A DNA stretch of 64,000 nucleotides, taken from contig NZ_CP034562.1 of assembly GCF_003970675.1 (NCBI RefSeq), forward strand, positions 1,054,001 to 1,118,000, in the 5' to 3' direction. The position numbers and the translations under genes were made by a program. The notes under the pieces were generated by a model. It did not search any database. It saw only the letters and a list, made by a program, of their open reading frames with translations, and was not told the origin of the DNA. Within the stretch, counting starts at the first letter, position 1, and the number at the start of each line of letters is the position of its first letter. Below, piece after piece: positions 6,312 to 20,478 of the stretch. This DNA comes from Flammeovirga pectinis (lineage in GTDB: Bacteria; Bacteroidota; Bacteroidia; Cytophagales; Flammeovirgaceae).

Positions 6312-7625
6312 ATGAGTGCTCCCCAATTAACTAAAACACTTACGCCATTAATGTTATGGGGTTTAGGTGTTGGGTATGTAATTTCTGGAATGTATTTCGG
6401 GTGGAATTTAGGATTAGCAGAAGGAGGAACATTAGGTTTGGCTATTGCTACATTCTTTGTAGTAATTATGTACGTAACCTTTACTTTCTCTTATACTGAA
6501 TTAGCATGTGCAATCCCTAAAGCAGGAGGCGCTTTTGAATATGCAAAAAGAGGATTAGGCCCCAAATTAGGGTTTCTTGGTGGCATGGCTCAAAATATAG
6601 AATTTATTTTTGCTCCACCAGCTATTGCTTCTGCAATTGGAGCATACCTTAACTTATTGTATCCATCTATTGATACAATTTATTTTGCAATAGCAGCTTA
6701 TTTTATATTTACTGCTATTAATATTTTAGGTGTGAAACTAGCTGCTACCTTCGAATTAATAATTACAGTATTAGCAGTTTTAGAATTATTGATTTTTTCT
6801 GGTGTAACATTACCACATTTTGAGTTTTCTAATTTGGAACGTAATGCTTTTCCGAATGGAATACCAGGTATTTTTGCTTCAATTCCATTTGCAATTTGGT
6901 TCTTTCTAGCTATTGAAGGAGTGGCCAATGTTGCAGAAGAAACTAAGAATCCATCAAAAAGTATTTTATTAGGGTTTGGTTCATCTATTTCCACATTAGT
7001 AATCTTATGTGTACTTACTTTTGTTTCTGCTGTTGGAGTAGGTGGTTGGGAAACTGTTGTTTATTTACCATCAAGTACTGTTCCATCGGATTCACCATTA
7101 CCTTTAGCATTGGGACAAGTAGTGTCAGAAGGTAATATTCTATATAAACTATTAATTGGAATTGGTTTATTAGGGCTCGTTGCTTCTTTTCATGGTATAA
7201 TTTTAGTAGCAGGGCGTTCAACTTTTGAATTTGGAAGAGAAGGTTATGCACCAAAATTTCTAAGTAAAATACATCCTAAATTTAAAACCCCTATTAGTGC
7301 TTTATTGGTAAATATGGTAATTGGTATAATTGCTTTGTTTACTGGTAAAACAGCAGAAATTATTACAATAGCCTGTTTTGGTGCATTGGTATTGTATATT
7401 ATCTCAATGCTTTCATTGTTTGCATTAAGGAAGAAAGAACCGAACTTAAATCGCCCTTTTAGCGTTCCATTTTATCCGTTATTTCCATTAATAGCATTAG
7501 TTATTGCAACAATCTCACTGTTAGCCATGACCTATTATAATCTCCATTTGGCTACTATTTTTACAGTAATAATGCTTGGTACATATACTTATTTTCTTTT
7601 TAATTTTAGAAAAAAAAGGACATAA
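6312..7625 (+). CDS. APC-family amine permease, probably ethanolamine permease
   Basis: A 437-residue inner-membrane transporter with about 12 hydrophobic segments. The N-terminal block (GVGYVISGMYFGWNLGLAEGG, residues 19-39 without its outer ends) is strongly reminiscent of the ethanolamine transporter (EAT) branch of the APC superfamily, as are AGGAFEYAKRGLGP and IEGVANVAEETKNPSK. I therefore prefer ethanolamine over an amino acid as substrate. The gene stands alone between two terminators, 7 kb upstream of an operon that could catabolise a gamma-glutamylated amino alcohol (14660-19285). No ethanolamine ammonia-lyase (eutBC) lies in the window. The family call is solid; the substrate is inferred from remembered family similarity. 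Confidence 0.8.
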   Translation: MSAPQLTKTLTPLMLWGLGVGYVISGMYFGWNLGLAEGGTLGLAIATFFVVIMYVTFTFSYTELACAIPKAGGAFEYAKRGLGPKLGFLGGMAQNIEFIFAPPAIASAIGAYLNLLYPSIDTIYFAIAAYFIFTAINILGVKLAATFELIITVLAVLELLIFSGVTLPHFEFSNLERNAFPNGIPGIFASIPFAIWFFLAIEGVANVAEETKNPSKSILLGFGSSISTLVILCVLTFVSAVGVGGWETVVYLPSSTVPSDSPLPLALGQVVSEGNILYKLLIGIGLLGLVASFHGIILVAGRSTFEFGREGYAPKFLSKIHPKFKTPISALLVNMVIGIIALFTGKTAEIITIACFGALVLYIISMLSLFALRKKEPNLNRPFSVPFYPLFPLIALVIATISLLAMTYYNLHLATIFTVIMLGTYTYFLFNFRKKRT

Positions 7626-9019: not shown

Positions 9020-10582
9020 ATGAGAAATATTTTACTAACAATTTCAGTCTTATTAATGACTGCTGGAGCAATGTTCGCTCAGAAATCTAAGAAAAATAAA
9101 AAGCCAAATATTTTGGTAATTATGGGTGATGATGTTGGATATGGAAACGTCAGTATTTATAATAATAAAATGTTAGCATATCAAACACCAAATATTGATG
9201 GTATTGGTGAAAAAGGAGTAACATTAACTTCACAATATGCACAACAATCATGTACAGCAGGTAGAGCTGCTTTTATTACTGGACAATCTCCATTAAGAAC
9301 AGGTTTATCTACTATTGGAATGCCAGGTTCTAAAATTGGTATCCAAAAAGAAGATCCAACAATTGCAGAAGTTTTAAAACCACTAGGTTATACATCTGGT
9401 CAATTTGGTAAAAATCACTTAGGCGATAGAGATGAATTTTTACCAACAAACCATGGTTTTGATGAGTTCTTTGGTAATCTTTATCACTTAAATGCTGAAG
9501 AGGAGCCAGAAGATCCTGCTTACCCTACAGACCCTGAATTTAAGAAAAAATATGGTCCAAGAGGTGTTATTCATTCTTATGCAGACGGACGTATCTCTGA
9601 TACAGGTCCTTTAAATAAAAAGAGAATGGAAACTGTAGATGGCGAATTTATGAATGCCTCTATCAACTTCATGGAAAAAGCAGTTAACGAAGATAAGCCA
9701 TTCTTTGTATGGTTCAACTCAACTCGTATGCACGTATTTACTCACCTTACAGAAGAATCTAAGAAATTAGTGAACAAGTATGGCTTATATGGTGCAGGTA
9801 TGACAGAACTTGATAATCAAGTTGGTACGTTATTAAATAAATTAGAAGAATTAGGTGTTGCAGAAAATACTATTGTTATTTTCACTACAGATAATGGTGT
9901 TGAAAAAATGACATGGCCTGACGGTGGTATTTCTCCATTCCGTGGTGAAAAAGGATCTACTTGGGAAGGTGGTGTTCGTGTACCATTCGTAATAAAATAT
10001 CCTAACGGAATAAAAGATACAGGTCGTAAATTAAATGGTATTGTTTCTCATGAAGACATGATGCCTACACTATATGCTGCAGTAACTGGCAAAGATGATT
10101 TAAAGGAGACTTTAAAAACAAAAGGTTACAAAGGTGAAGAGCAAACTTATAAAGTACATTTAGATGGTTATAACCAATGGGATTACTTTACAGGGAAAGA
10201 AGAAAAATCGAGAAGAGATGCATTCTTCTATGTAGCAGATAATGGAATGATCCAAGCAATGCGTTGGGATGATTGGAAAATCCACTTTATTGTTCAAGAA
10301 GGTGAAGGTCCTGATATGTGGTTCTCTGGTCATAGATTTGCCCTTTCATGGCCAAAGATCTATAACTTAGCACAAGATCCTTATGAATCTGCTGATCATT
10401 CTGGAATGTACTTAAAATGGTACGGACAAAAAATGTGGTTATTTGTTCCAGCAAAAGAAAAATTAGGAGAATTCTTTATGAGCTTTAAAGAATTTCCTCC
10501 TCGCCAAAGACCAGAATTATTAAGTCCTGGTAAAATGCAAGAGATGTTATATCAAATGATGGATAGAACACCAAAGAACTAA
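9020..10582 (+). CDS. Secreted type I arylsulfatase (copy 1)
   Basis: Hydrolyses sulfate esters, probably on a polysaccharide or aryl substrate, outside the cytoplasm. The 520 residues start with a signal peptide (residues 1-21, MFAQ). Metal-binding Asp37 and Asp38 sit in ILVIMGDDVGYGN. The activation site is SCTAGRAAFITGQ, with Cys78 as the residue to become formylglycine and Arg82: a C-x-A-x-R form in place of the usual C-x-P-S-R. FTTDNG supplies further metal ligands. The dependence on a maturation enzyme is family knowledge; none is in the window. The second copy lies 345 bases downstream with its own terminator-separated transcript. The substrate is unknown, and no SusC/SusD pair is adjacent. 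Confidence 0.9.
   Translation: MRNILLTISVLLMTAGAMFAQKSKKNKKPNILVIMGDDVGYGNVSIYNNKMLAYQTPNIDGIGEKGVTLTSQYAQQSCTAGRAAFITGQSPLRTGLSTIGMPGSKIGIQKEDPTIAEVLKPLGYTSGQFGKNHLGDRDEFLPTNHGFDEFFGNLYHLNAEEEPEDPAYPTDPEFKKKYGPRGVIHSYADGRISDTGPLNKKRMETVDGEFMNASINFMEKAVNEDKPFFVWFNSTRMHVFTHLTEESKKLVNKYGLYGAGMTELDNQVGTLLNKLEELGVAENTIVIFTTDNGVEKMTWPDGGISPFRGEKGSTWEGGVRVPFVIKYPNGIKDTGRKLNGIVSHEDMMPTLYAAVTGKDDLKETLKTKGYKGEEQTYKVHLDGYNQWDYFTGKEEKSRRDAFFYVADNGMIQAMRWDDWKIHFIVQEGEGPDMWFSGHRFALSWPKIYNLAQDPYESADHSGMYLKWYGQKMWLFVPAKEKLGEFFMSFKEFPPRQRPELLSPGKMQEMLYQMMDRTPKN
9848..9984 (+). repeat. Near-identical tract shared by the two sulfatase genes
   Basis: These 137 bases match 11759-11895 with a single mismatch (position 9949), including all other synonymous sites. 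Most of the two genes differ at many third codon positions. A second identical block of about 38 bases starts near 9497. This patchiness suggests gene conversion. Confidence 0.8.
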
Positions 10583-10612
10583 TTTGAGTATTATTTAGAT
10601 AGTACAATTTGC

Positions 10613-10647
10613 AAACCCTTATATGTTTAACATATAAGGGTTTTTTT
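10613..10647 (+). terminator. Intrinsic terminator of sulfatase 1
   Basis: A perfect 13-base stem: AAACCCTTATATG (10613-10625) with CATATAAGGGTTT (10631-10643), 5-base loop, T-run 10641-10647. Confidence 0.92.
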
Positions 10648-10808
10648 ATGTTTGATATCAATCTATATTGATTTTAGTATTTTAAAAGTTCTCAAAAAAT
10701 AACTTTATTTCTTTACTTTTTAATTTTAAAGGACAATTAAATATCAAAAAGCGATTATCTGATATCATAAAAAGTCTAAATTTTTCTTTTCTGTTTTAAC
10801 AACTTTAA

Positions 10809-10836
10809 ATATTTAGTTTAATATGAAACTAAATAT
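10809..10836. repeat. Inverted repeat upstream of sulfatase 2
   Basis: ATATTTAGTTT (10809-10819) and AAACTAAATAT (10826-10836) are perfect complements around a 6-base centre, 92 bases before the ATG. No T-tract follows, so it looks more like an operator or leader hairpin than a terminator. Confidence 0.55.
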
Positions 10837-10927
10837 AGCCAGAGGCGTTTTTCTTTATATATCATTTATTTAAATGTACTATTAAATAAGTATTACATAT
10901 TAAATAAAACTTTATTAAAATTATATA

Positions 10928-12499
10928 ATGATGAACAAAAGGATACTTACAGTAGGGTTACTACTAATGACGTCAATTGGAGCGTTTGCTCAAAAAGGCA
11001 AAACAAAGGATAGACCAAATATATTAGTAATTATGGGTGATGACATTGGGTATGGGAACGTTAGTACCTACAATAATGGCATGCTTGCTTATCAAACTCC
11101 AAATATTGACGAAATAGGTAAAGAAGGTGTTGTTTTAACTTCAGAATATGGTCAACAATCTTGTACGGCAGGTAGAGCAGCTTTCATTACAGGCCAATCA
11201 CCATTAAGAACAGGTTTGTCAACTATAGGTATGCCAGGTTCTAAAATAGGTTTACAAGATGAAGATGCAACGATAGCAGAGTTATTAAAACCTTATGGTT
11301 ATGCAACTGGTCAATTTGGTAAAAATCACTTAGGTGATAGAGACGAATTCTTACCAACAAATCATGGTTTTGATGAATTTTATGGAAATCTTTACCATTT
11401 AAATGCAGAAGAGGAGCCAGAAGATCCTGCTTACCCTACAGACCCAGCATTTAAGAAAAAATACGGGCCTAGAGGGGTAATTCATTCTTATGCTGATGGA
11501 CGTATTTCTGATACGGGTCCTTTAACAAAAAAGCGAATGGAAGATGTAGATGAGGATTTCTTACAGGCTTCTGAAAGATTCATGACACAAGCAGTTAAAG
11601 AGGACAAACCTTTCTTTGTTTGGTTTAACTCTACTCGTATGCACGCATTTACGCACTTAAATGATAAATACAAACAGTACCTTCATGATTACGGTTTATA
11701 CGGTGCAGGCATGAAAGAACTTGATGATAATGTTGGTTTATTATTAAATAAATTAGAGGAATTAGGTGTTGCAGAAAATACTATTGTTATTTTCACTACA
11801 GATAATGGTGTTGAAAAAATGACATGGCCTGACGGTGGTATTTCTCCATTCCGTGGTGAGAAAGGATCTACTTGGGAAGGTGGTGTTCGTGTACCGTTTG
11901 TTATTAGATATCCAAAAGAAATCAAAAGCACAGGACGTAGATTAAACGGTATTGTTTCTCATGAAGATATGATGCCTACATTGTATGCAGCAGCAACTGG
12001 TGATACTAAGTTGGTTGAAAAAATGAAAGAAGGGATGACAGTTGGTGATAAAACATTCAAGTTACATTTAGATGGTTATAACCAATGGGATTACTTTACT
12101 GGCAAATCAGAAAAATCAGCTAGAGATACATTTTTCTATGTAGCTGATAATGGAATGATCCAAGCAATGCGTTGGAATGATTGGAAAATTCACTTTGTAA
12201 TCCAAGAAGGTGAAGGTCCAGATATGTGGTTCTCAGGTCACAGATTCGAAGTTTCATGGCCTAAGATTTACAATTTAGCTCAAGATCCATACGAAGCTGC
12301 AGATCATTCTGGGATGTACTTAAAATGGTACGGTCAAAAAATGTGGTTATTTGTTCCAGCAAAACAAATGTTAGGTCAGTTCTTTATGAGCTTTAAAGAC
12401 TTCCCTCCACGCCAGCGACCAGAAACACTATCTCCTGGTAAAATGCAAGAAATGTTATACCAAATGATGGATAAAGGAGCAGCGAAAGCAGGTCAATAA
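10928..12499 (+). CDS. Secreted type I arylsulfatase (copy 2)
   Basis: A 523-residue tandem paralogue of the preceding sulfatase, very similar over its whole length. It has a signal peptide (residues 1-22, GAFAQ), metal-binding Asp38 and Asp39, the activation motif SCTAGRAAF (Cys79, Arg83) and the same C-terminal block (PPRQRPE.LSPGKMQEMLYQMMD). It starts with ATGATG; either codon may be used. The most different stretch is the loop near residues 365-385, which could affect substrate fit. The two copies probably arose by duplication and are partly homogenised. Substrate unknown; sulfated marine glycans are an inference from lifestyle. Confidence 0.9.
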   Translation: MMNKRILTVGLLLMTSIGAFAQKGKTKDRPNILVIMGDDIGYGNVSTYNNGMLAYQTPNIDEIGKEGVVLTSEYGQQSCTAGRAAFITGQSPLRTGLSTIGMPGSKIGLQDEDATIAELLKPYGYATGQFGKNHLGDRDEFLPTNHGFDEFYGNLYHLNAEEEPEDPAYPTDPAFKKKYGPRGVIHSYADGRISDTGPLTKKRMEDVDEDFLQASERFMTQAVKEDKPFFVWFNSTRMHAFTHLNDKYKQYLHDYGLYGAGMKELDDNVGLLLNKLEELGVAENTIVIFTTDNGVEKMTWPDGGISPFRGEKGSTWEGGVRVPFVIRYPKEIKSTGRRLNGIVSHEDMMPTLYAAATGDTKLVEKMKEGMTVGDKTFKLHLDGYNQWDYFTGKSEKSARDTFFYVADNGMIQAMRWNDWKIHFVIQEGEGPDMWFSGHRFEVSWPKIYNLAQDPYEAADHSGMYLKWYGQKMWLFVPAKQMLGQFFMSFKDFPPRQRPETLSPGKMQEMLYQMMDKGAAKAGQ

Positions 12500-13022: not shown

Positions 13023-13604
13023 ATGGCAGGTAGACCAAAGATTTTTAAGCAAGAAGAAGTATTAGATAAAACAATTCAATTGTTTTGGGAAAATGGCTAC
13101 GAAGCTACAAGTACAAACGATTTACTAAAAGAAGTAAACCTTAATAAGGGCAGTCTTTATAATAGTTTTAAAAGTAAAAGAGAACTATTTAAAGCAGGTT
13201 TGCATGCATTAGAAGGGAAAGCACTCGATAATTTTGAGAAAACATTAGCAGAAAGTGATGATCCCATACAAATTATAAAAAATATGTTTTTGGGTATTGC
13301 CGATGCTTCTTATCTATCAAATTGCAAAGGGTGTATTTTAGGTAATACGATTATCGAATTTATTGGTAAAGATGAGGAGATCAAAGATATTGCTGTCGAT
13401 TACTTACTAAAATTGGAAAACATTTTTGTGAGATACATCAAAAAAGCTGAATTAGAAGGTAAATTAAATACTACCCAAAGCCCAGAATTTCTAGCCAAGC
13501 ATCTGATTAATTTTTGGAACGGAATTAACGTTACAAGAAGGGTTCATCAGAATAAAAAAGACCTATTAGAAATAATTAATTATAACCTAAACTTTATAAA
13601 ATAG
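13023..13604 (+). CDS. TetR/AcrR-family transcriptional regulator
   Basis: A 193-residue one-component repressor. The N-terminal helix-turn-helix is clear (MAGRPKIFKQEEVLDKTIQL..., GYEATSTNDLLKEVNLNKGS, LYNSFKSKREL). The C-terminal ligand domain carries a CKGCILGNT block like YxaF/LmrA or AcuR-type members; two Cys there (SNCKGC) might sense electrophiles, which is inference. The ATG at 13023 is chosen because the frame's earlier start at 12969 lies inside the promoter. It is the first gene of an operon with a DUF417 protein and an AhpD-like protein. Confidence 0.9.
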   Translation: MAGRPKIFKQEEVLDKTIQLFWENGYEATSTNDLLKEVNLNKGSLYNSFKSKRELFKAGLHALEGKALDNFEKTLAESDDPIQIIKNMFLGIADASYLSNCKGCILGNTIIEFIGKDEEIKDIAVDYLLKLENIFVRYIKKAELEGKLNTTQSPEFLAKHLINFWNGINVTRRVHQNKKDLLEIINYNLNFIK

Positions 13605-13651: not shown

Positions 13652-14116
13652 ATGGATAATCAATCATCAATACTTCAAAAAATTGGAGAAAACATCAGTA
13701 GATATGGCTTGGTACTTATATTACTTTGGTATGGCGTATTTAAATTTACTCCTACTGAAGCTGAAGCGATAAAACCATTAATAGAAAATAGCCCATTTTT
13801 TAATTGGATGCTTTCTATTATGACACTTCAACAGGTGTCTAATTTTATTGGTATTACAGAAATAATAACAGCAATAGCAATAGCTTTACGACCTATTTCT
13901 CCAAAAATAGCTGCACTAGGGAGTGCGTTAGCAGTTGTTACATTTGTGGGTACATTATCATTCTTATTTACCACTCCAGGTATGTTTAAAATAGTAGAAT
14001 GGTTGTACGTTCCTAATGGGTTTGTATTAAAAGATTTACTCCTTTTAGGCTTTAGTTTTTGGAGTTTGGGCGAAGCACTTTCTGCAATAAAAAATCAGGA
14101 AAATACTTTGACATAA
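13652..14116 (+). CDS. DUF417 (YkgB/RclC-like) membrane protein
   Basis: A 154-residue inner-membrane protein with four hydrophobic segments and the DUF417 blocks RYGLVLILLWYGVFKFTP and PNGFVLKDLLLLG. The Escherichia coli member, RclC (YkgB), belongs to a regulon that resists reactive chlorine; the molecular role is not known. It lies 47 bases behind the TetR gene and 51 bases before the AhpD-like gene, consistent with a stress-induced operon. Confidence 0.85.
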   Translation: MDNQSSILQKIGENISRYGLVLILLWYGVFKFTPTEAEAIKPLIENSPFFNWMLSIMTLQQVSNFIGITEIITAIAIALRPISPKIAALGSALAVVTFVGTLSFLFTTPGMFKIVEWLYVPNGFVLKDLLLLGFSFWSLGEALSAIKNQENTLT

Positions 14117-14167: not shown

Positions 14168-14524
14168 ATGGATTTATTAAACGAATACAGAGAAAGAAGA
14201 GCCGATCAGAATAAGAAAGTAATAGACAATGCAGATAAAGTAATTAAAAGAATTTACAGTCTTGATACTATAACTTATACTGAGGGTGCTTTAGACGAAA
14301 AAACAAAAGAAATCATAGGTTTAACAACATCACTTGTTTTACGTTGTGATGATTGTGTAAAATATCATTTAGAAAAATGTGTAGAGTTAGGGTACTCTAA
14401 GGCTCAAATTATAGAAGGTATGGGTGTTGCCAATGTTGTTGGTGGTACTATAGTAATTCCTCATTTAAGAAGAGCAGTAGAATATTTAGAGGCTTTATCT
14501 CAAGAAATAGAAGAGGAGAAATAA
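14168..14524 (+). CDS. AhpD-like carboxymuconolactone decarboxylase-family protein
   Basis: A 118-residue all-helical protein with the AhpD redox motif C-x-x-C-x-x-x-H (Cys60, Cys63, His67 in RCDDCVKYH). Such proteins act as small thiol-dependent peroxidase or oxidoreductase partners in the cytoplasm. The operon context (TetR regulator, RclC-like membrane protein) points to oxidant or electrophile defence. It is the last gene before a strong terminator. Decarboxylase activity is unlikely because the redox pair is intact. Confidence 0.87.
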   Translation: MDLLNEYRERRADQNKKVIDNADKVIKRIYSLDTITYTEGALDEKTKEIIGLTTSLVLRCDDCVKYHLEKCVELGYSKAQIIEGMGVANVVGGTIVIPHLRRAVEYLEALSQEIEEEK

Positions 14525-14659: not shown

Positions 14660-16018
14660 ATGACCAAACAAGAAATTATTGATCTACTCGAAGATAGTAG
14701 ACATACAAAAGTAAAAGTAGCTATTGTAGATATTGACGGCGTCCTCCGTGGAAAATACATGCACATCGATAAATTTATATCTTCTTTAGATAGTGGATTT
14801 GGGTTTTGTGATGTTGTTTTTGGTTGGGATATGGCCGACGAGTCGTACGATAATGTTAAAGTAACGGGTTGGCACACAGGTTATCCAGATGCACCAGCTA
14901 GGATAGATGTAAACACATTTAGACAAGTGCCGTGGGAAGATGATGTTCCTTTTTTCTTAGCTGATTTTAGTAGAGATAATAAAAAAGATGAGACAGTAGG
15001 GCCAAGAGCTTTACTAAAAAGAATAAATAGTAAAGCAAATGATTTAGGTTTTGCTCCACTATTTTCTCAAGAATTTGAGTGGTTTAATTTTAAGCAAACA
15101 ACAACAGAATTACACGAAAAAGACTTTAATAATATAAAACCTTTAACAGAAGGAATGTTTGGGTACTCTATTTTAAGAGCATCCGAAAATAGCGACTTCT
15201 TCCATGCATTGTTTGATATGATGGAGGATTTTAAAGTTCCTCTAGAAGGGTTACACACAGAAACAGGGCCCGGAGTATATGAAGCTGCAATTCAATACAG
15301 TGATATTGTTGAAGCTGCTGATAGAGCTACATTGTTTAAATCTTCTGCAAAAGAAATTGGATACAAACATGGTATAATAGCTAGTTTTATGGCAAAGCAA
15401 AACATGAAACTACCAGGTTGTAGTGGTCATGTGCATCAAAGTTTATGGAATATTGATAAAACAAAAAACCTGTTTTATGATCCAGAAAAAGAAGATAATA
15501 TAAGTGATGTAATGCAATCATATATTGCAGGACAGTTGCATTGCTTACCATATATGTTGCCTATGTTAGCACCTACAATTAACAGCTATAAAAGATTAGT
15601 AGAAGGGGCTTGGGCGCCAACCACATTAACATGGGCGGTTGATAACAGAACAACGGCTTTAAGAGTTTTACCACATGGCGAAAAATCTGCACGATTAGAA
15701 ACAAGAGTGGTAGGTTCTGATGTGAATCCATATTTAGCAATGTCAGCATGTTTGGCCGCTGGATTATATGGAATAGAAAACAAATTAACATTAGATACCC
15801 CTAAGACAATTGGCAACGGTTATGAAGATTTTAAAAATGGAACTCTGCCTTCTAATCTTTGGGATGCAACACAGAATATGAAAAATTCTTCGTTAATGAA
15901 GGATTTATTTGGTGAAGAATTCGTAGAACATTTCACTTTAACAAGAGAATGGGAATGGAAACAATTTATGAACCATGTAACTGATTGGGAAACGAAAAGA
16001 TATTTTGAAATAATATAA
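14660..16018 (+). CDS. Glutamine-synthetase-like gamma-glutamyl-amine ligase
   Basis: A 452-residue ATP-dependent ligase of the glutamine synthetase superfamily. Superfamily blocks are present: QEFEWF (metal Glu residues), TGPGVYEAAI, SGHVHQSLW, then YKRLVEGAWAP, then DNRTTALRV, then LETRVVGSDVNPYLAMSACL. The changed spacing and sequence compared with ordinary GlnA, plus the gene order, suggest it joins glutamate to an amine (as PuuA, IpuC or Streptomyces GlnA4 do) instead of making glutamine. It is the first gene of a tight operon: the stop is 3 bases before the alcohol dehydrogenase ATG. No tyrosine adenylylation loop is obvious. Substrate inference: ethanolamine or another amino alcohol. 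Confidence 0.85.
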   Translation: MTKQEIIDLLEDSRHTKVKVAIVDIDGVLRGKYMHIDKFISSLDSGFGFCDVVFGWDMADESYDNVKVTGWHTGYPDAPARIDVNTFRQVPWEDDVPFFLADFSRDNKKDETVGPRALLKRINSKANDLGFAPLFSQEFEWFNFKQTTTELHEKDFNNIKPLTEGMFGYSILRASENSDFFHALFDMMEDFKVPLEGLHTETGPGVYEAAIQYSDIVEAADRATLFKSSAKEIGYKHGIIASFMAKQNMKLPGCSGHVHQSLWNIDKTKNLFYDPEKEDNISDVMQSYIAGQLHCLPYMLPMLAPTINSYKRLVEGAWAPTTLTWAVDNRTTALRVLPHGEKSARLETRVVGSDVNPYLAMSACLAAGLYGIENKLTLDTPKTIGNGYEDFKNGTLPSNLWDATQNMKNSSLMKDLFGEEFVEHFTLTREWEWKQFMNHVTDWETKRYFEII

Positions 16019-16021
16019 GAT

Positions 16022-17173
16022 ATGTTAGACATTCACGCTACCTACACCTATAATTTTCCTACAACGATACGTTTTGGTATTGGAGTAATCAAAGAATTAG
16101 GGCCATACCTTAAAGAACATAATTTATCTAGGCCTTTGCTTGTTACAGATGAACTTGTGTTTGGATTGCCTTTCTTTAAAACTATTATTGCCGATTTAGA
16201 GAAGGTAGGGATATCGCCTGCAGTCTTTTATGATATGCATAAAAATCCTCTTAAATCTGATGTTTTAAAAGGGGGAGATGCCTACCATGGGCATGAATGT
16301 GACTCTATTGTTGGAATTGGTGGAGGAGTAGCAATGGATGTTGCTAGATCGATTGTTTTGCGCGTAAATCATACAAGAGACCTTTTTGATTATGATGATT
16401 TAATTGGTGGAGATAAATATGTAACAGAAGAAGTCCCTCATTTTATAACTGTACCAACCACTTCTGGTACAGGGAGTGAAGTAGGTAGAAGTGCTATTAT
16501 TTCAGATGATGAAACAAGGCAAAAGAAAATATTATTTTCACCTAAATTGTTGGCTAAAATTGTGTTTGCAGACCCAATGTTAACACTTGATTTACCTTCT
16601 TTTGTTACTGCGGCAACAGGCATGGACGCATTAACGCATAACATGGAAGCCTTTTTATCAAAAGGTTTTAACCCCATGTGTGATGGTATTGCAATATCTG
16701 GAATGAGGTTAATTGGTACTTCAATTGTGCAAGCCACAAAAGAACCAAATATGTTTTCTCGTTCAAAGATGATGATTGGCTCCTTAATGGGAGCTGTGGC
16801 TTTTCAGAAAGGCTTGGGTATTGTTCATAGTTTGGCACACCCATTATCTTCTCTTTTAGATACTCACCATGGCTTAGCAAACGCTATTTGTTTACCACAT
16901 GGTTTAAAATATAATTATCAAGGGTTTGAAGATAAGTACAATTTTATGGCATATTCAATGAACCTTGGTACGAACCAAGGGAAGATTTTAGTAGATCATA
17001 TTGAAATTTTAAATCAGCAATTAGGCTTGCCAGATTCGTTGTCTCAAATCGGAGTTAAGGAAGAACATATAAAACCTCTTGCAGCATTGGCTGTAAAAGA
17101 TTTTTGTCTACCTAGTAATCCTAAAATAGTGACCGAAGAGGAGTTTGAACAAATCTACAGAAACGCATTATAA
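16022..17173 (+). CDS. Iron-containing (type III) alcohol dehydrogenase
   Basis: A 383-residue NAD(P)-dependent group III alcohol dehydrogenase. The nucleotide motif GIGGGVAMD starts at residue 98, and PTTSGTGSE follows at 145-153. All four metal ligands have the spacing of E. coli FucO: Asp202, His206, His269 and His283. In this operon it would oxidise the alcohol end of a gamma-glutamylated amino alcohol to an aldehyde. That step is done by an amine oxidase (PuuB) in putrescine pathways, and PuuB is missing here. The ATG follows the ligase stop by 3 bases and the next ATG follows its own stop by 1 base. Confidence 0.9.
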   Translation: MLDIHATYTYNFPTTIRFGIGVIKELGPYLKEHNLSRPLLVTDELVFGLPFFKTIIADLEKVGISPAVFYDMHKNPLKSDVLKGGDAYHGHECDSIVGIGGGVAMDVARSIVLRVNHTRDLFDYDDLIGGDKYVTEEVPHFITVPTTSGTGSEVGRSAIISDDETRQKKILFSPKLLAKIVFADPMLTLDLPSFVTAATGMDALTHNMEAFLSKGFNPMCDGIAISGMRLIGTSIVQATKEPNMFSRSKMMIGSLMGAVAFQKGLGIVHSLAHPLSSLLDTHHGLANAICLPHGLKYNYQGFEDKYNFMAYSMNLGTNQGKILVDHIEILNQQLGLPDSLSQIGVKEEHIKPLAALAVKDFCLPSNPKIVTEEEFEQIYRNAL

Positions 17174-17174
17174 G

Positions 17175-17912
17175 ATGATAAAAATTGGAATTACTCCAAG
17201 CTTCATGTATCCCGATAGTAGTAGAACGGTTTATGGTCCGAAATCGTTGACTTATGTGGAAAACGATATGATGACTTATATTGCTAGAAAAGGAGTGTTG
17301 CCTGTTCTTCTTCCTGATATTGAGAAACCATTGTTAGCTGATATTCTTAATGAAATGCAAGGTTTTATTCTACAAGGAGGTGTTGATTTAGCACCAGAAT
17401 CTTACGGAGAGAAACCTATAGGAGAATGGAAAGGAGATAAATATAGAGACGATTATGAACTAGAAATAATTGATTATGCCATTAAAAATGATAAACCAAT
17501 ATTTGGAATATGTAGGGGCTTTCAGTTGATGAACGTTTACTTTGGAGGGACATTATATCAAGATACGGTTACACAAAAAGAGGGTGTAAATAACCATCGT
17601 TCTGCAAAGTTATATGATACAATAAAGCATCCACTAGTTATTAAAGAACCTTCTTTTTTAGCTTCATTGTATCCAAATAATTCCAATCCATATGTAAATA
17701 CAATTCATCATCAGGCTGTAAAAGACCTAGGAAAAGATTTAGAAGTTTGGGCAACATCAGACGATGGGCTTGTAGAAGCATTTGGTTACAAAGGTAAATC
17801 AGAAGGAAAGGTAATGGCTGTGCAGTGGCACCCAGAATTTTCAAGAACTTTAGGTACGCAAATTTTAGATCCAAACCCACTTTACGATATTTTCTTATCA
17901 CACATAAAATAA
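17175..17912 (+). CDS. Class I glutamine amidotransferase-like gamma-glutamyl hydrolase (PuuD-like)
   Basis: A 245-residue peptidase C26 family hydrolase that would release free acid and glutamate from a gamma-glutamylated product. The nucleophile is Cys113 in GICRGFQLMNV and the His/Glu pair lies in QWHPEF. PuuD of E. coli, which cleaves gamma-glutamyl-GABA, is the best studied relative. The ATG at 17175 is preferred over the frame's earlier start at 17145 because it sits one base after the upstream stop and directly precedes the typical MIKIGITPSF start. It is followed 5 bases later by the aldehyde dehydrogenase. Confidence 0.88.
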   Translation: MIKIGITPSFMYPDSSRTVYGPKSLTYVENDMMTYIARKGVLPVLLPDIEKPLLADILNEMQGFILQGGVDLAPESYGEKPIGEWKGDKYRDDYELEIIDYAIKNDKPIFGICRGFQLMNVYFGGTLYQDTVTQKEGVNNHRSAKLYDTIKHPLVIKEPSFLASLYPNNSNPYVNTIHHQAVKDLGKDLEVWATSDDGLVEAFGYKGKSEGKVMAVQWHPEFSRTLGTQILDPNPLYDIFLSHIK

Positions 17913-17917
17913 CATCT

Positions 17918-19285
17918 ATGGACATTATTAACCCTGCAAATGATTCAATAATAACCTCAATTAAAGAAGACTCGATAGAAGTACTATCAGATAAAATAGA
18001 TCACCTTCGTTTTGGTCAAAAAGAATGGGCAAAGCAAACCGTAGCACACAGATTAAAATGCATTGTCCGATTTGGCGAATTGGTTCTTGAAAATGTAAAT
18101 GAATTAGCTACTATCTTATCTGAAGAAACAGGTAAGCCTATTCAGCAATCAATCAATGAAATAAAAGGGGCTCAGAATAGAATAGAGCATCTAAAACTTA
18201 ATGCTGAGAAATGGTTAGCAGAAGAAGTTATTGAAGGTTTAGAAACAACTTATGAGAAAATTACATACGAACCTTTAGGTGTGATTTGTAATATATCGGC
18301 ATGGAATTTCCCCTATAATGTAGGGTACAATGTATTCTTATATGCATTAGTTGCAGGAAATGCAGTAGCTTATAAACCCTCCGAATTTGCTACTTTAACA
18401 GGGTTGCAGTTTCAGAAATTACTATATGAGGCTGGTGTTCCAGAAAACGTTTTTCATTGTATTATAGGTGGTGCTGAAGTTGGAGAATATCTATTAGAAA
18501 GTGATTTTGATGGCTATTTCTTTACGGGTTCTCATAAAACAGGACAGTACATTGCTAAAAAGGTAGCACATAAATTAGTGCCTGTTCAATTAGAGCTAGG
18601 CGGGAAAGACCCTTTGTATGTAATGGAAGATGTTGCAGATGTTAAAATTGCAGCTATCAACGCTGCAGAAGGTGCTTTTTATAATAATGGACAAAGTTGT
18701 TGTGCTCTCGAACGGATTTATGTCCACGCTGCTATTTACGATGAGTTTGTAAAAGAACTAGTAAAAGAAGTAAATAATTATAAAATGGGCGATCCTTTAA
18801 ATAAAGAAACATTTATTGGGCCTTTAACTAGAAAAGCTCAATTACCAATTTTACAATATCAAGTGGAAGATGCTTTAGCCAAAGGTGGAGTTTTAATGAC
18901 GGGTGGGACTGAGGTGAATAACAGTGGAAATTATTTTGAGCCTACAGTTTTTAAAGATGTCAATCATGAAATGAAGCTGATGCAAGAAGAATCTTTCGGA
19001 CCGATAATAGGTATTCAAAAAGTGAATAATGACGAACAGGCGATAGATTTGATGAAAGACTCAGATTATGGCTTAACTTCGGCAGTGTTTTCAACAAGTA
19101 AAGAGAGAGCAGACCACGTATTTGATCAAATGAACTCAGGTACAGTGTATTGGAACTGCTGTGATAGAGTTAGCCCAAATGTACCTTGGTCTGGTCGTAA
19201 AAATTCTGGACTTGGTGCTACATTATCAGTACAAGGAATTAGAGCATTTACGCTCCCTAAAGCGTATCATTGGAGAGAAGTATAA
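17918..19285 (+). CDS. NAD-dependent aldehyde dehydrogenase
   Basis: A 455-residue ALDH-superfamily enzyme oxidising an aldehyde to the acid. The Rossmann segment, Glu226 (ELGGKDP) and catalytic Cys261 (NNGQSCCAL) are intact; a second Cys follows directly. The ATG at 17918, beginning MDIINPANDS, is 5 bases after the hydrolase stop; the longer frame from 17825 would overlap that gene and is rejected. In the operon it would oxidise the gamma-glutamyl aldehyde made by the iron alcohol dehydrogenase. Annotation engines may call it succinate-semialdehyde dehydrogenase, which the context does not exclude. Confidence 0.9.
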   Translation: MDIINPANDSIITSIKEDSIEVLSDKIDHLRFGQKEWAKQTVAHRLKCIVRFGELVLENVNELATILSEETGKPIQQSINEIKGAQNRIEHLKLNAEKWLAEEVIEGLETTYEKITYEPLGVICNISAWNFPYNVGYNVFLYALVAGNAVAYKPSEFATLTGLQFQKLLYEAGVPENVFHCIIGGAEVGEYLLESDFDGYFFTGSHKTGQYIAKKVAHKLVPVQLELGGKDPLYVMEDVADVKIAAINAAEGAFYNNGQSCCALERIYVHAAIYDEFVKELVKEVNNYKMGDPLNKETFIGPLTRKAQLPILQYQVEDALAKGGVLMTGGTEVNNSGNYFEPTVFKDVNHEMKLMQEESFGPIIGIQKVNNDEQAIDLMKDSDYGLTSAVFSTSKERADHVFDQMNSGTVYWNCCDRVSPNVPWSGRKNSGLGATLSVQGIRAFTLPKAYHWREV

Positions 19286-19296
19286 ATAAACCTATT

Positions 19297-20478
19297 ATGT
19301 CATTTTCAATTATAAATTTTAAGAACAATCAAGGCGATGTTTTAGTAGCCTCATTGTCATTACCCGCAGATGAAAAACCACATGCATATGCATTATTTGC
19401 ACATTGCTTCTTTTCATCTTTAGAAGAAACTACTGTAGTAAATAGTATTGTAAGAGAGTTAAACCAGAAAGGAATTGCTGTGTTTAGTTTAGATATTACA
19501 GGCTTTTCTCAACAAAACCCTGGTTATGCAGCTAGTATAGAAGATATTCTATCTGCTTCTGATTATATGGCTGAAAACCTAAAATCGCCACAATTATTAA
19601 TAGGACATTCTCTAGCAGGAAGTGCTGCAATTTTATTAGCAAACAGAATTGCTTCTGTAGATGCTATTGTAACTATTAGTGCTTTTTCTAAGGTGAAAAG
19701 TATTGAAAAAGTTGCAGATGTAGAAGGAGATTACGCAAATGTTCATCTTTTAGCAAAAGAATTTAAAGTGAAATCTAGTTTTATAAATCAAATATCATCG
19801 CCCAATTATGCGGATATTATTCATAAAATTAAATTACCGTTACTGATTTTTCACTCTCCATTTGATGCTGTCGTTGACATTAAAAATGCAGAGAAAATTT
19901 ATAAAAATGCTTTTCACCCAAAGAGCTTTATTTCTTTAGATGATGCGAATCATTTCTTATCAACACCTAGAAATGGTCAGTATGTAGGAAATATGATCGG
20001 TAGCTGGGCAGAAAGATATGTGGAAATGGAATTAGAAGATCCATTAGAAACGCAATACCAGACAGCGGTAAGAATAGGAACTACAAAATATGTTACAGAA
20101 GTAAAAGCTGGAGTACATCATCAGATTGCAGATGAACCTTTAAAAGATGGTGGAAAAGATTTAGGTCCTAATCCATATCAATTTTTATTGGCAGGACTTG
20201 GTGCTTGTACAGCAATGACGTTGAGAATGTATGCAAACCATAAAAAGTGGAATTTAGAAGAAGTAACTGTTCATTTAAATCATGAAAATGAATATCTAAA
20301 GGATGCTGAGAATGCAAACAAGCGTACGGCTAAAATAGATAATTTATACCGTCATATTCAGATTAAAGGTGATTTAACAGAGAAACAAAGAGGACGTTTA
20401 CTAGAGATAGCAAACAAATGCCCGGTACATAGAACATTAGAAAATAATCCAGTTATTCATACAGATTTACTTGATTAA
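19297..20478 (+). CDS. Alpha/beta hydrolase-OsmC fusion protein
   Basis: A 393-residue two-domain protein. Residues 1-245 form an alpha/beta hydrolase with nucleophile elbow GHSLAGS (Ser105). Residues 250-393 form an OsmC peroxiredoxin-like domain with the two conserved cysteines Cys304 (LGACTAM) and Cys375 (KCPVHRT). The fusion is a known architecture, but its substrate is not established; OsmC relatives reduce organic hydroperoxides. It starts 11 bases after the aldehyde dehydrogenase stop (ATG at 19297, not the overlapping 19270 frame) and ends the operon. It may protect against reactive aldehydes or peroxides; this is inference. Confidence 0.88.
   Translation: MSFSIINFKNNQGDVLVASLSLPADEKPHAYALFAHCFFSSLEETTVVNSIVRELNQKGIAVFSLDITGFSQQNPGYAASIEDILSASDYMAENLKSPQLLIGHSLAGSAAILLANRIASVDAIVTISAFSKVKSIEKVADVEGDYANVHLLAKEFKVKSSFINQISSPNYADIIHKIKLPLLIFHSPFDAVVDIKNAEKIYKNAFHPKSFISLDDANHFLSTPRNGQYVGNMIGSWAERYVEMELEDPLETQYQTAVRIGTTKYVTEVKAGVHHQIADEPLKDGGKDLGPNPYQFLLAGLGACTAMTLRMYANHKKWNLEEVTVHLNHENEYLKDAENANKRTAKIDNLYRHIQIKGDLTEKQRGRLLEIANKCPVHRTLENNPVIHTDLLD

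Follow-up and report, generated by a model that had tools for sequence, protein, structure and literature searches.

The genome of Flammeovirga pectinis carries a compact four-gene operon that most probably encodes a cobalamin-independent route of ethanolamine utilization, a reading to which we assign a probability of about 85% on the basis of gene content and comparative genomics. The operon lies at positions 14660 to 19285 of a 64,000-nucleotide stretch of contig NZ_CP034562.1 (positions 1,054,001 to 1,118,000, forward strand; this whole stretch is called the window below). It consists of genes for a glutamine synthetase (GS)-like ligase, an iron-containing alcohol dehydrogenase (Fe-ADH), a C26-family hydrolase and an aldehyde dehydrogenase (ALDH), and a gene for an ethanolamine-type permease lies 7 kb upstream. 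Ethanolamine from phosphatidylethanolamine represents a large pool of reduced nitrogen, and the ammonia lyase EutBC, which turns it into acetaldehyde and ammonia, needs cobalamin.

The operon and the proposed route

The genes of the proposed route are the following:

14660..16018, + strand: GS-like ligase, putative gamma-glutamylethanolamide synthetase (PF00120, 2e-94)
16022..17173, + strand: Fe-ADH, putative gamma-glutamylethanolamide dehydrogenase (PF00465 with PF25137)
17175..17912, + strand: C26-family (PuuD-like) hydrolase, putative gamma-glutamylglycine hydrolase (PF07722, 1.5e-53)
17918..19285, + strand: ALDH, putative gamma-glutamyl-aminoacetaldehyde dehydrogenase (PF00171, 4.4e-125)
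6312..7625, + strand: APC-family permease, putative ethanolamine importer (TIGR00908, 465 bits, cut-off 381.75)

In the proposed scheme, the permease at 6312 would import ethanolamine, which the GS-like ligase would then join to the gamma-carboxyl group of glutamate at the expense of ATP, thus forming gamma-glutamylethanolamide and protecting the amine. The alcohol of this intermediate would be oxidized by the iron-dependent dehydrogenase to gamma-glutamyl-aminoacetaldehyde and by the ALDH to gamma-glutamylglycine, from which the C26 hydrolase would release glycine while glutamate is recycled. Every substrate and reaction in the scheme is deduced from what is observed, namely the genes and their families, the catalytic motifs, the conserved order, the co-occurrence with the permease and the absence of eutBC.

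The architecture agrees with the first-pass annotation, made from the DNA letters alone, which had described four genes separated by 1-5 bases: all four are on the + strand with gaps of 3, 1 and 5 bp (using the ATG starts 17175 and 17918 for the hydrolase and the ALDH), and the Pfam families are those expected. The Fe-ADH does possess the full set of four metal ligands claimed for it, D202, H206, H269 and H283 in the motifs TGMDALTH, HSLAH and THHG, an assignment based on motif and spacing, as the ligand numbers of FucO fell one residue off in the translation. The triad C113, H219 and E221 of the hydrolase aligns with C114, H222 and E224 of PuuD, and the two best matches by sequence in the PDB are Lin1909 and a PuuD; the score on the PuuD model is 95.7 bits (cut-off 266). 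The ALDH contains ELGGK at 226 and GQSC at 258 and reaches 240 bits on the PuuC model, whose cut-off is 850.

The ligase matches four NCBIfam models and stays under the cut-off of all of them. In particular, it obtains 222 bits on both the type III and the type I GS models (cut-offs 469.6 and 429.15) and 195 bits on that of the gamma-glutamylputrescine synthetase PuuA (cut-off 650), corresponding to about half of the GS cut-offs and one third of the PuuA cut-off, so that by these cut-offs it belongs to neither type I nor type III GS. Its N-terminal part carries 14 residues that E. coli GlnA lacks, an insertion common to PuuA, IpuC and the ethanolamine-type rows of the alignment. An extra N-terminal motif is described as present in most organic-amine ligases (GoaS) and absent from type I GS (PMC11335346); the window ligase has such an extra stretch, as GoaS do, and we infer that the insertion corresponds to motif 15 of that paper.

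Permease, EutB and the likely substrate

The strongest indications on the substrate come from the permease. The window protein exceeds the curated cut-off of TIGR00908 (2A0305), the ethanolamine permease model, in line with its earlier description as an ethanolamine-type permease; in an alignment of this protein with 31 relatives all 32 members match TIGR00908 at 1e-20 or better, the cut-off score being at hand for the window's protein only. The distribution of the family was evaluated in 395 Bacteroidota genomes drawn evenly and not chosen by the GS gene. These genomes are related and kinship was ignored, so that the p values given below serve as a rough guide only; the lists of genomes entering the co-occurrence and exclusion tests were compiled by hand. 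A GS match at 1e-60 is found in 52 of the 395 genomes, 41 of them (F. pectinis included) at an identity of at least 53% and 11 at 32-36%, the latter being handled as a separate type. Apart from F. pectinis, the strong matches divide into 7 genomes in which the GS gene adjoins an ADH gene, as in the window (type A), and 33 in which it adjoins a gene for a kinase-like protein (type B).

TIGR00908 is matched over its cut-off in 20 of the 395 genomes, and all 20 hold one of three kinds of locus: 8 carry the type A operon, 8 EutB and 4 a GS of the 32-36% kind, with none left over (hypergeometric p 3.9e-26, kinship ignored). The GS of these last four genomes fall in the 15-row clade of the known ethanolamine type described below, three of them in its sister branch, and in two genomes, G193 and G100, the permease gene shares one operon with a GS of this wider clade. 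Of the 8 EutB genomes, 7 have the permease gene beside eutB and in the same orientation, at a distance of at most 130 bp in 6 and of 0.7 kb in the other; in the eighth, the two genes are on different contigs. In parallel, the permease gene is directly upstream of the GS gene (that is, the next same-strand upstream open reading frame (ORF) of at least 150 aa or with a family match) in all 7 type A genomes of the sample besides F. pectinis.

EutB and the operon seem to replace each other across Bacteroidota, sharing a permease family and, by our reading, a substrate. Indeed, EutB was found in none of 20 operon genomes as opposed to 7 of 34 type B genomes (Fisher p 0.038), and the permease is present in 15 of the 20 operon genomes as opposed to 0 of the 27 type B genomes without EutB. 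The refuting case named with the first-pass annotation, operon genomes devoid of the permease and endowed with eutBC, was therefore not encountered. The first-pass annotation had seen no eutBC in the window, and this extends to the genome of F. pectinis, in which searches for EutB and EutC (EutC in this genome only) returned nothing; the EutB plus EutC set of the cobalamin-dependent pathway is thus lacking there, while the set of ligase, ADH, ALDH, hydrolase and linked transporter characteristic of ethanolamine gamma-glutamylation is complete, the transporter lying 7 kb off. Collectively, the co-occurrence of the permease with the operon and with EutB lends support to the ethanolamine reading first put forward from the window, and from it we infer ethanolamine as the substrate.

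A wider view of gene order is offered by 80 named loci, which are the best 80 of 565 confirmed and which lean for that reason towards the window type. The search for the operon beside the permease in other Bacteroidota, set out in advance as a check, gave a positive answer here too: in 52 of the 80 the GS gene is directly preceded by the permease gene, the full order permease-GS-ADH-C26-ALDH occurs in 36, and 12 are of type B. Type A carriers named among these loci include Pedobacter, Chitinophaga, Flavihumibacter, Cyclobacterium, Emticicia, Larkinella, Membranihabitans and Solitalea.

Several observations weigh against the ethanolamine reading. In the genus of the window the permease gene is not within the operon, and 5 of the 20 operon genomes, 3 of them in this genus, have no TIGR00908 match over the cut-off. 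Given how many other genomes have the two side by side, their linkage may have loosened in this genus. Gene content also varies: among the 55 named loci with an ADH gene, a C26 gene is near the GS gene in 41 and an ALDH gene in 49, several loci being cut by contig ends, and the genomes G011 and G016 pair GS and permease genes with the ADH and C26 genes elsewhere. Moreover, the ligase shares only about 34% identity with the published ethanolamine type and falls in another clade; two plasmid relatives at 44% adjoin genes for an aminotransferase and for spermidine/putrescine-type (PotABC) ABC transporters, and a relative at 39% is annotated ipuC. The amine thus appears to vary across this ligase group, which makes the Fe-ADH the local hint that the substrate is an alcohol. 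Finally, D50 of GlnA, which we take to be an ammonium-site residue, is matched by an aspartate of the window ligase, D64, within a gappy part of the alignment; an amine ligase would not be expected to show this.

These points bear on three other explanations. The same chemistry could act on another primary amino alcohol, such as 3-aminopropanol, alaninol or serinol, with beta-alanine, alanine or serine as product. The ligase, Fe-ADH and ALDH would be compatible with any such compound, and the 39% relative is annotated as ipuC, gamma-glutamylisopropylamide synthetase. The isopropylamine pathway leads to L-alaninol via glutamylated intermediates. We regard this explanation as unlikely, given that the permease family stands beside eutB, the ethanolamine ammonia lyase gene, in 7 genomes and that operon and EutB never occur together in the 20 operon genomes. 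A Puu-type putrescine or polyamine pathway has in its favour that the ligase, the ALDH and the C26 hydrolase can each be paired with a Puu enzyme, the PuuD triad being kept, and that the two 44% plasmid relatives adjoin aminotransferase and spermidine/putrescine-type ABC genes. As in the window, amines are glutamylated by the E. coli PuuABCD pathway, oxidized and then cleaved by a C26 hydrolase. Yet the operon contains neither a PuuB-type oxidase nor an aminotransferase gene and has an Fe-ADH instead, which E. coli PuuABCD does not use; the scores of the ligase, ALDH and hydrolase stay far below the cut-offs of the Puu models, and the permease is over the cut-off for ethanolamine permeases. 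The Puu pathway was rejected on the lack of an oxidase in the operon and on these scores, and we consider it very improbable.

Even less credence can be given to the GS-like gene being an ordinary glutamine synthetase with unrelated neighbours. The full-length Gln-synt_C domain would suit such an enzyme, and most residues for glutamate, ATP and metal are kept (E129, E131, E212, E220, G265, H269, R321, R339, R344, E357 and R359 of E. coli GlnA). In contrast, E327 of GlnA aligns with W318 of the ligase, and S53 is replaced by K, Y179 by F and N264 by P. As D50 is matched by D64, the residue argument against ammonia as substrate is not a clean one. The sub-cut-off scores (222 bits against 469.6 and 429.15), the residue changes and the presence in the same genome of two further GS-domain genes (frames of 734 and 720 aa) led to the rejection of a canonical GS, to which the order with ADH, C26 and ALDH genes, conserved across families, is also opposed. 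The ligase is thus probably not a glutamine synthetase, and the preferred assignment of the operon is still to ethanolamine.

Ligase phylogeny and relation to known routes

The gamma-glutamylation of ethanolamine is already published, and the operon is accordingly less novel than the first-pass annotation had held; the Bacteroidota version is set apart by a ligase of another clade and a C26 enzyme at the end. No report of the route in Bacteroidota was found in the open-access literature, which is weak evidence of absence. The Streptomyces enzyme GlnA4 was assayed as a gamma-glutamylethanolamide synthetase, the later steps being predicted (PMC6529630), and this route is repeated in a review (PMC9397018). 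In marine Phaeobacter, the proteins of the ethanolamine operon rise on phosphorylethanolamine and the TRAP binding protein EtoX binds ethanolamine; the same study refers to ethanolamine gamma-glutamylation in Chromohalobacter and Agrobacterium (PMC10132767). The operon order published there is matched by our reading of Ruegeria sp. B32, with RpiR-FGase-TRAP-GS-ALDH-FeADH.

The window operon shares with the Phaeobacter system (ETAGA-GAADDH-GETADH-GGAH plus EtoVWX) and with those of Chromohalobacter and Agrobacterium a ligase, an Fe-ADH, an ALDH, a gamma-glutamylglycine hydrolase, an ethanolamine transporter and, as far as can be predicted, the chemistry. Unlike this alphaproteobacterial and halophile operon, it has an APC permease and not a TRAP transporter, no adjoining RpiR gene, and as last enzyme a C26 hydrolase (PF07722) in place of the N-formylglutamate amidohydrolase (PF05013, as in Ruegeria); its Fe-ADH and ALDH are 35% and 36% identical to the copies of Paracoccus pantotrophus. 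The GlnA4 cluster of Streptomyces coelicolor (SCO1611-1615) likewise combines a GS-like ligase with predicted dehydrogenases and a predicted hydrolase; it differs in its regulator, EpuRI, and in its hydrolase, for which membership of the formylglutamate amidohydrolase family is predicted (PMC6529630). IpuC, annotated as gamma-glutamylisopropylamide synthetase in Paenarthrobacter aurescens TC1, is also a GS-like small-amine ligase (39% identical), with different neighbours: cytochrome P450, ferredoxin and ferredoxin reductase genes, and no Fe-ADH annotated in the stretch seen.

The position of the ligase was evaluated in a quick tree of 120 of 160 rows, supported by the Shimodaira-Hasegawa-like approximate likelihood ratio test (SH-aLRT) only and built without Streptomyces GlnA4. 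The rows were thinned among copies of the window's genus, part of one type B family and every second named type A row; a split copy from the window's genus (G005, under 425 aa) and the Paracoccus versutus copy (L216, over-long start) were left out beforehand. The rows of PDB 5dm3 and 11zs and those of Paracoccus and Salipiger fall in a 15-row clade (SH-aLRT 100) that does not contain the window ligase, which for this reason and for its different last enzyme is not of the ETAGA type. All 44 type A rows belong to another clade of 60 rows (SH-aLRT 98), nested among type B lineages, together with 6 rows having the permease only and 10 rows of other contexts. The nearest plasmid relatives outside Bacteroidota, at 44-48% identity, include clusters of Legionella lytica and Photobacterium with GS, ALDH, Fe-ADH and GATase genes.

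Among the 30 Fe-ADH plasmid matches listed (1689 further ones exist), the seven with the highest bit scores come from loci that also contain a GS-like gene; Shinella accounts for five of the seven, and for three of these five the link was read from the coordinates of GS and ADH only. Several plasmid relatives of the ALDH among the matches listed also adjoin GS-like genes. In the trees, the Bacteroidota and proteobacterial enzymes from GS operons are neither grouped nor separated in the case of the ADH (one-clade test p 0.45), while they occupy separate clades in the case of the ALDH, their mutual relation being left open.

On balance, these data slightly favour the view that Bacteroidota built a pathway of their own, in which the ligase would have been recruited from the older type B module and not from the published ligases, and which would have replaced eutBC behind the same permease family. 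If so, the operon would be one of several four-step assemblies from exchangeable parts, with Fe-ADH or SDR as first dehydrogenase, C26, class-I GATase or formylglutamate amidohydrolase as hydrolase, and APC permease or TRAP as transporter, and the gamma-glutamyl pathway of the related type B clades would remain to be explained. Provided that the ethanolamine reading is right, many Bacteroidota, including (from named records) Pedobacter, Chitinophaga and other Chitinophagaceae, Cyclobacterium, Emticicia and Saprospiraceae, as well as the genus of the window, could use ethanolamine without cobalamin, and generic labels ('glutamine synthetase', 'iron-containing alcohol dehydrogenase') could give way to testable names. 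An ocean survey assigned about 94% of the hits for EtoX to Alphaproteobacteria (PMC10132767); as the transporter and the ligase clade are different, a search keyed to EtoX would overlook the Bacteroidota operon.

Neighbouring genes, other assemblies and the type B module

The operon is flanked in the window by the following genes:

13023..13604, + strand: TetR-family regulator, possible regulator of the cluster in the window's genus only (PF00440)
13652..14116, + strand: DUF417 membrane protein, probably unrelated (PF04224)
14168..14524, + strand: AhpD/CMD-like protein, probably unrelated to the pathway (PF02627)
19297..20478, + strand: alpha/beta-hydrolase/OsmC fusion, last gene of the cluster in the window's genus (PF12146 and PF02566)

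The fusion gene starts 11 bp past the ALDH gene, and the five genes are contiguous in all 8 other genomes of the genus examined, which indicates that this arrangement is more than chance. In one of these genomes, G005 (L027:4637-5995), the GS gene has an in-frame stop, to be ascribed either to a pseudogene or to an assembly error. At an identity of at least 45%, the fusion is found in none of the 80 named loci. Upstream, the TetR gene is at the equivalent position in 7 of the 8 other genomes, and none of the 80 named loci has a match to it close to the GS gene, while the AhpD/CMD-like and DUF417 genes are present in 7 and 2 of the 8, respectively. Two sulfatase genes (9020-12499) are among those that separate the permease from the operon. 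A search for structured RNA leaders between 6000 and 20600 of the window gave no Rfam match at gathering score.

GS-like genes also occur in other assemblies. The operons of G193 and G100 (L203:7973-13491 and L205:7800-13401) encode a GS, a 258-aa SDR, an ALDH, a 220-aa class-I GATase and, last, the permease, so that the places of Fe-ADH and C26 are taken by SDR and GATase (Pfam was run on the genes of G193 only). Outside the phylum, a Thermomicrobium roseum plasmid (L317:4977-8728) has consecutive genes for a GS with 34% identity to that of the window, for an SDR and for a permease annotated eat, which is over the TIGR00908 cut-off. That different protein families perform these roles in G193, G100, T. 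roseum and Ruegeria sp. B32 speaks for the ethanolamine reading. In Emticicia (L259:6730-10696 and L289:6742-10726), a ligase of the window clade is flanked by an ATP-grasp-like protein on one side and a GntP-type permease on the other (Pfam was run on L259, and L289 was assigned by ORFs of equal sizes); this further context may imply a further substrate. On a plasmid of Arthrobacter sp. U41 (L318, L320), GS-like, gamma-glutamyl-GABA-hydrolase-family, ALDH and reductase genes are preceded by an inositol-monophosphatase-family gene, with a choline-kinase-family gene nearby. In Paracoccus pantotrophus (L223:9710-14074), the glyoxylate metabolism genes bhcB, bhcC and bhcD come immediately after the ethanolamine operon of the known type and may offer an outlet for the resulting glycine.

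The least explained part is the type B module, composed of ligase, kinase-like protein and HAD phosphatase, which represents a further target if the ethanolamine reading is true. In the 33 type B genomes of the sample, a ligase 53-62% identical to that of the window stands beside a kinase-like protein of about 347 aa, and the HAD phosphatase gene comes next in 32; examples of the trio are L166:6540-9805, L293:7953-11439 and L194:8252-11627. The phosphatase, of which one protein was searched, is related to PDB 2hx1 and to pyridoxal phosphatases. In the kinase-like protein the motif DWNIGN is invariant, and Pfam matches are nearly absent, APH being matched weakly in 3 of 24 members (best E 0.0081). 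Against PDB sequences, one alignment of the family gave nothing up to E 1 and another a short unrelated match at E 2, and profile comparisons with E. coli SrkA and with an Arthrobacter choline-kinase-family protein were not significant. In the latter alignment, non-significant as it is, STNH and DWNIGN fall on what we take to be the N-lobe GLTN motif and a Brenner-like motif. In the Mucilaginibacter locus L293, a GlnII-like gene (412 bits, cut-off 500) is present upstream of the trio, behind a small reverse ORF, and five more loci of Mucilaginibacter, or so labelled, have a 336-aa ORF at the position of this gene.

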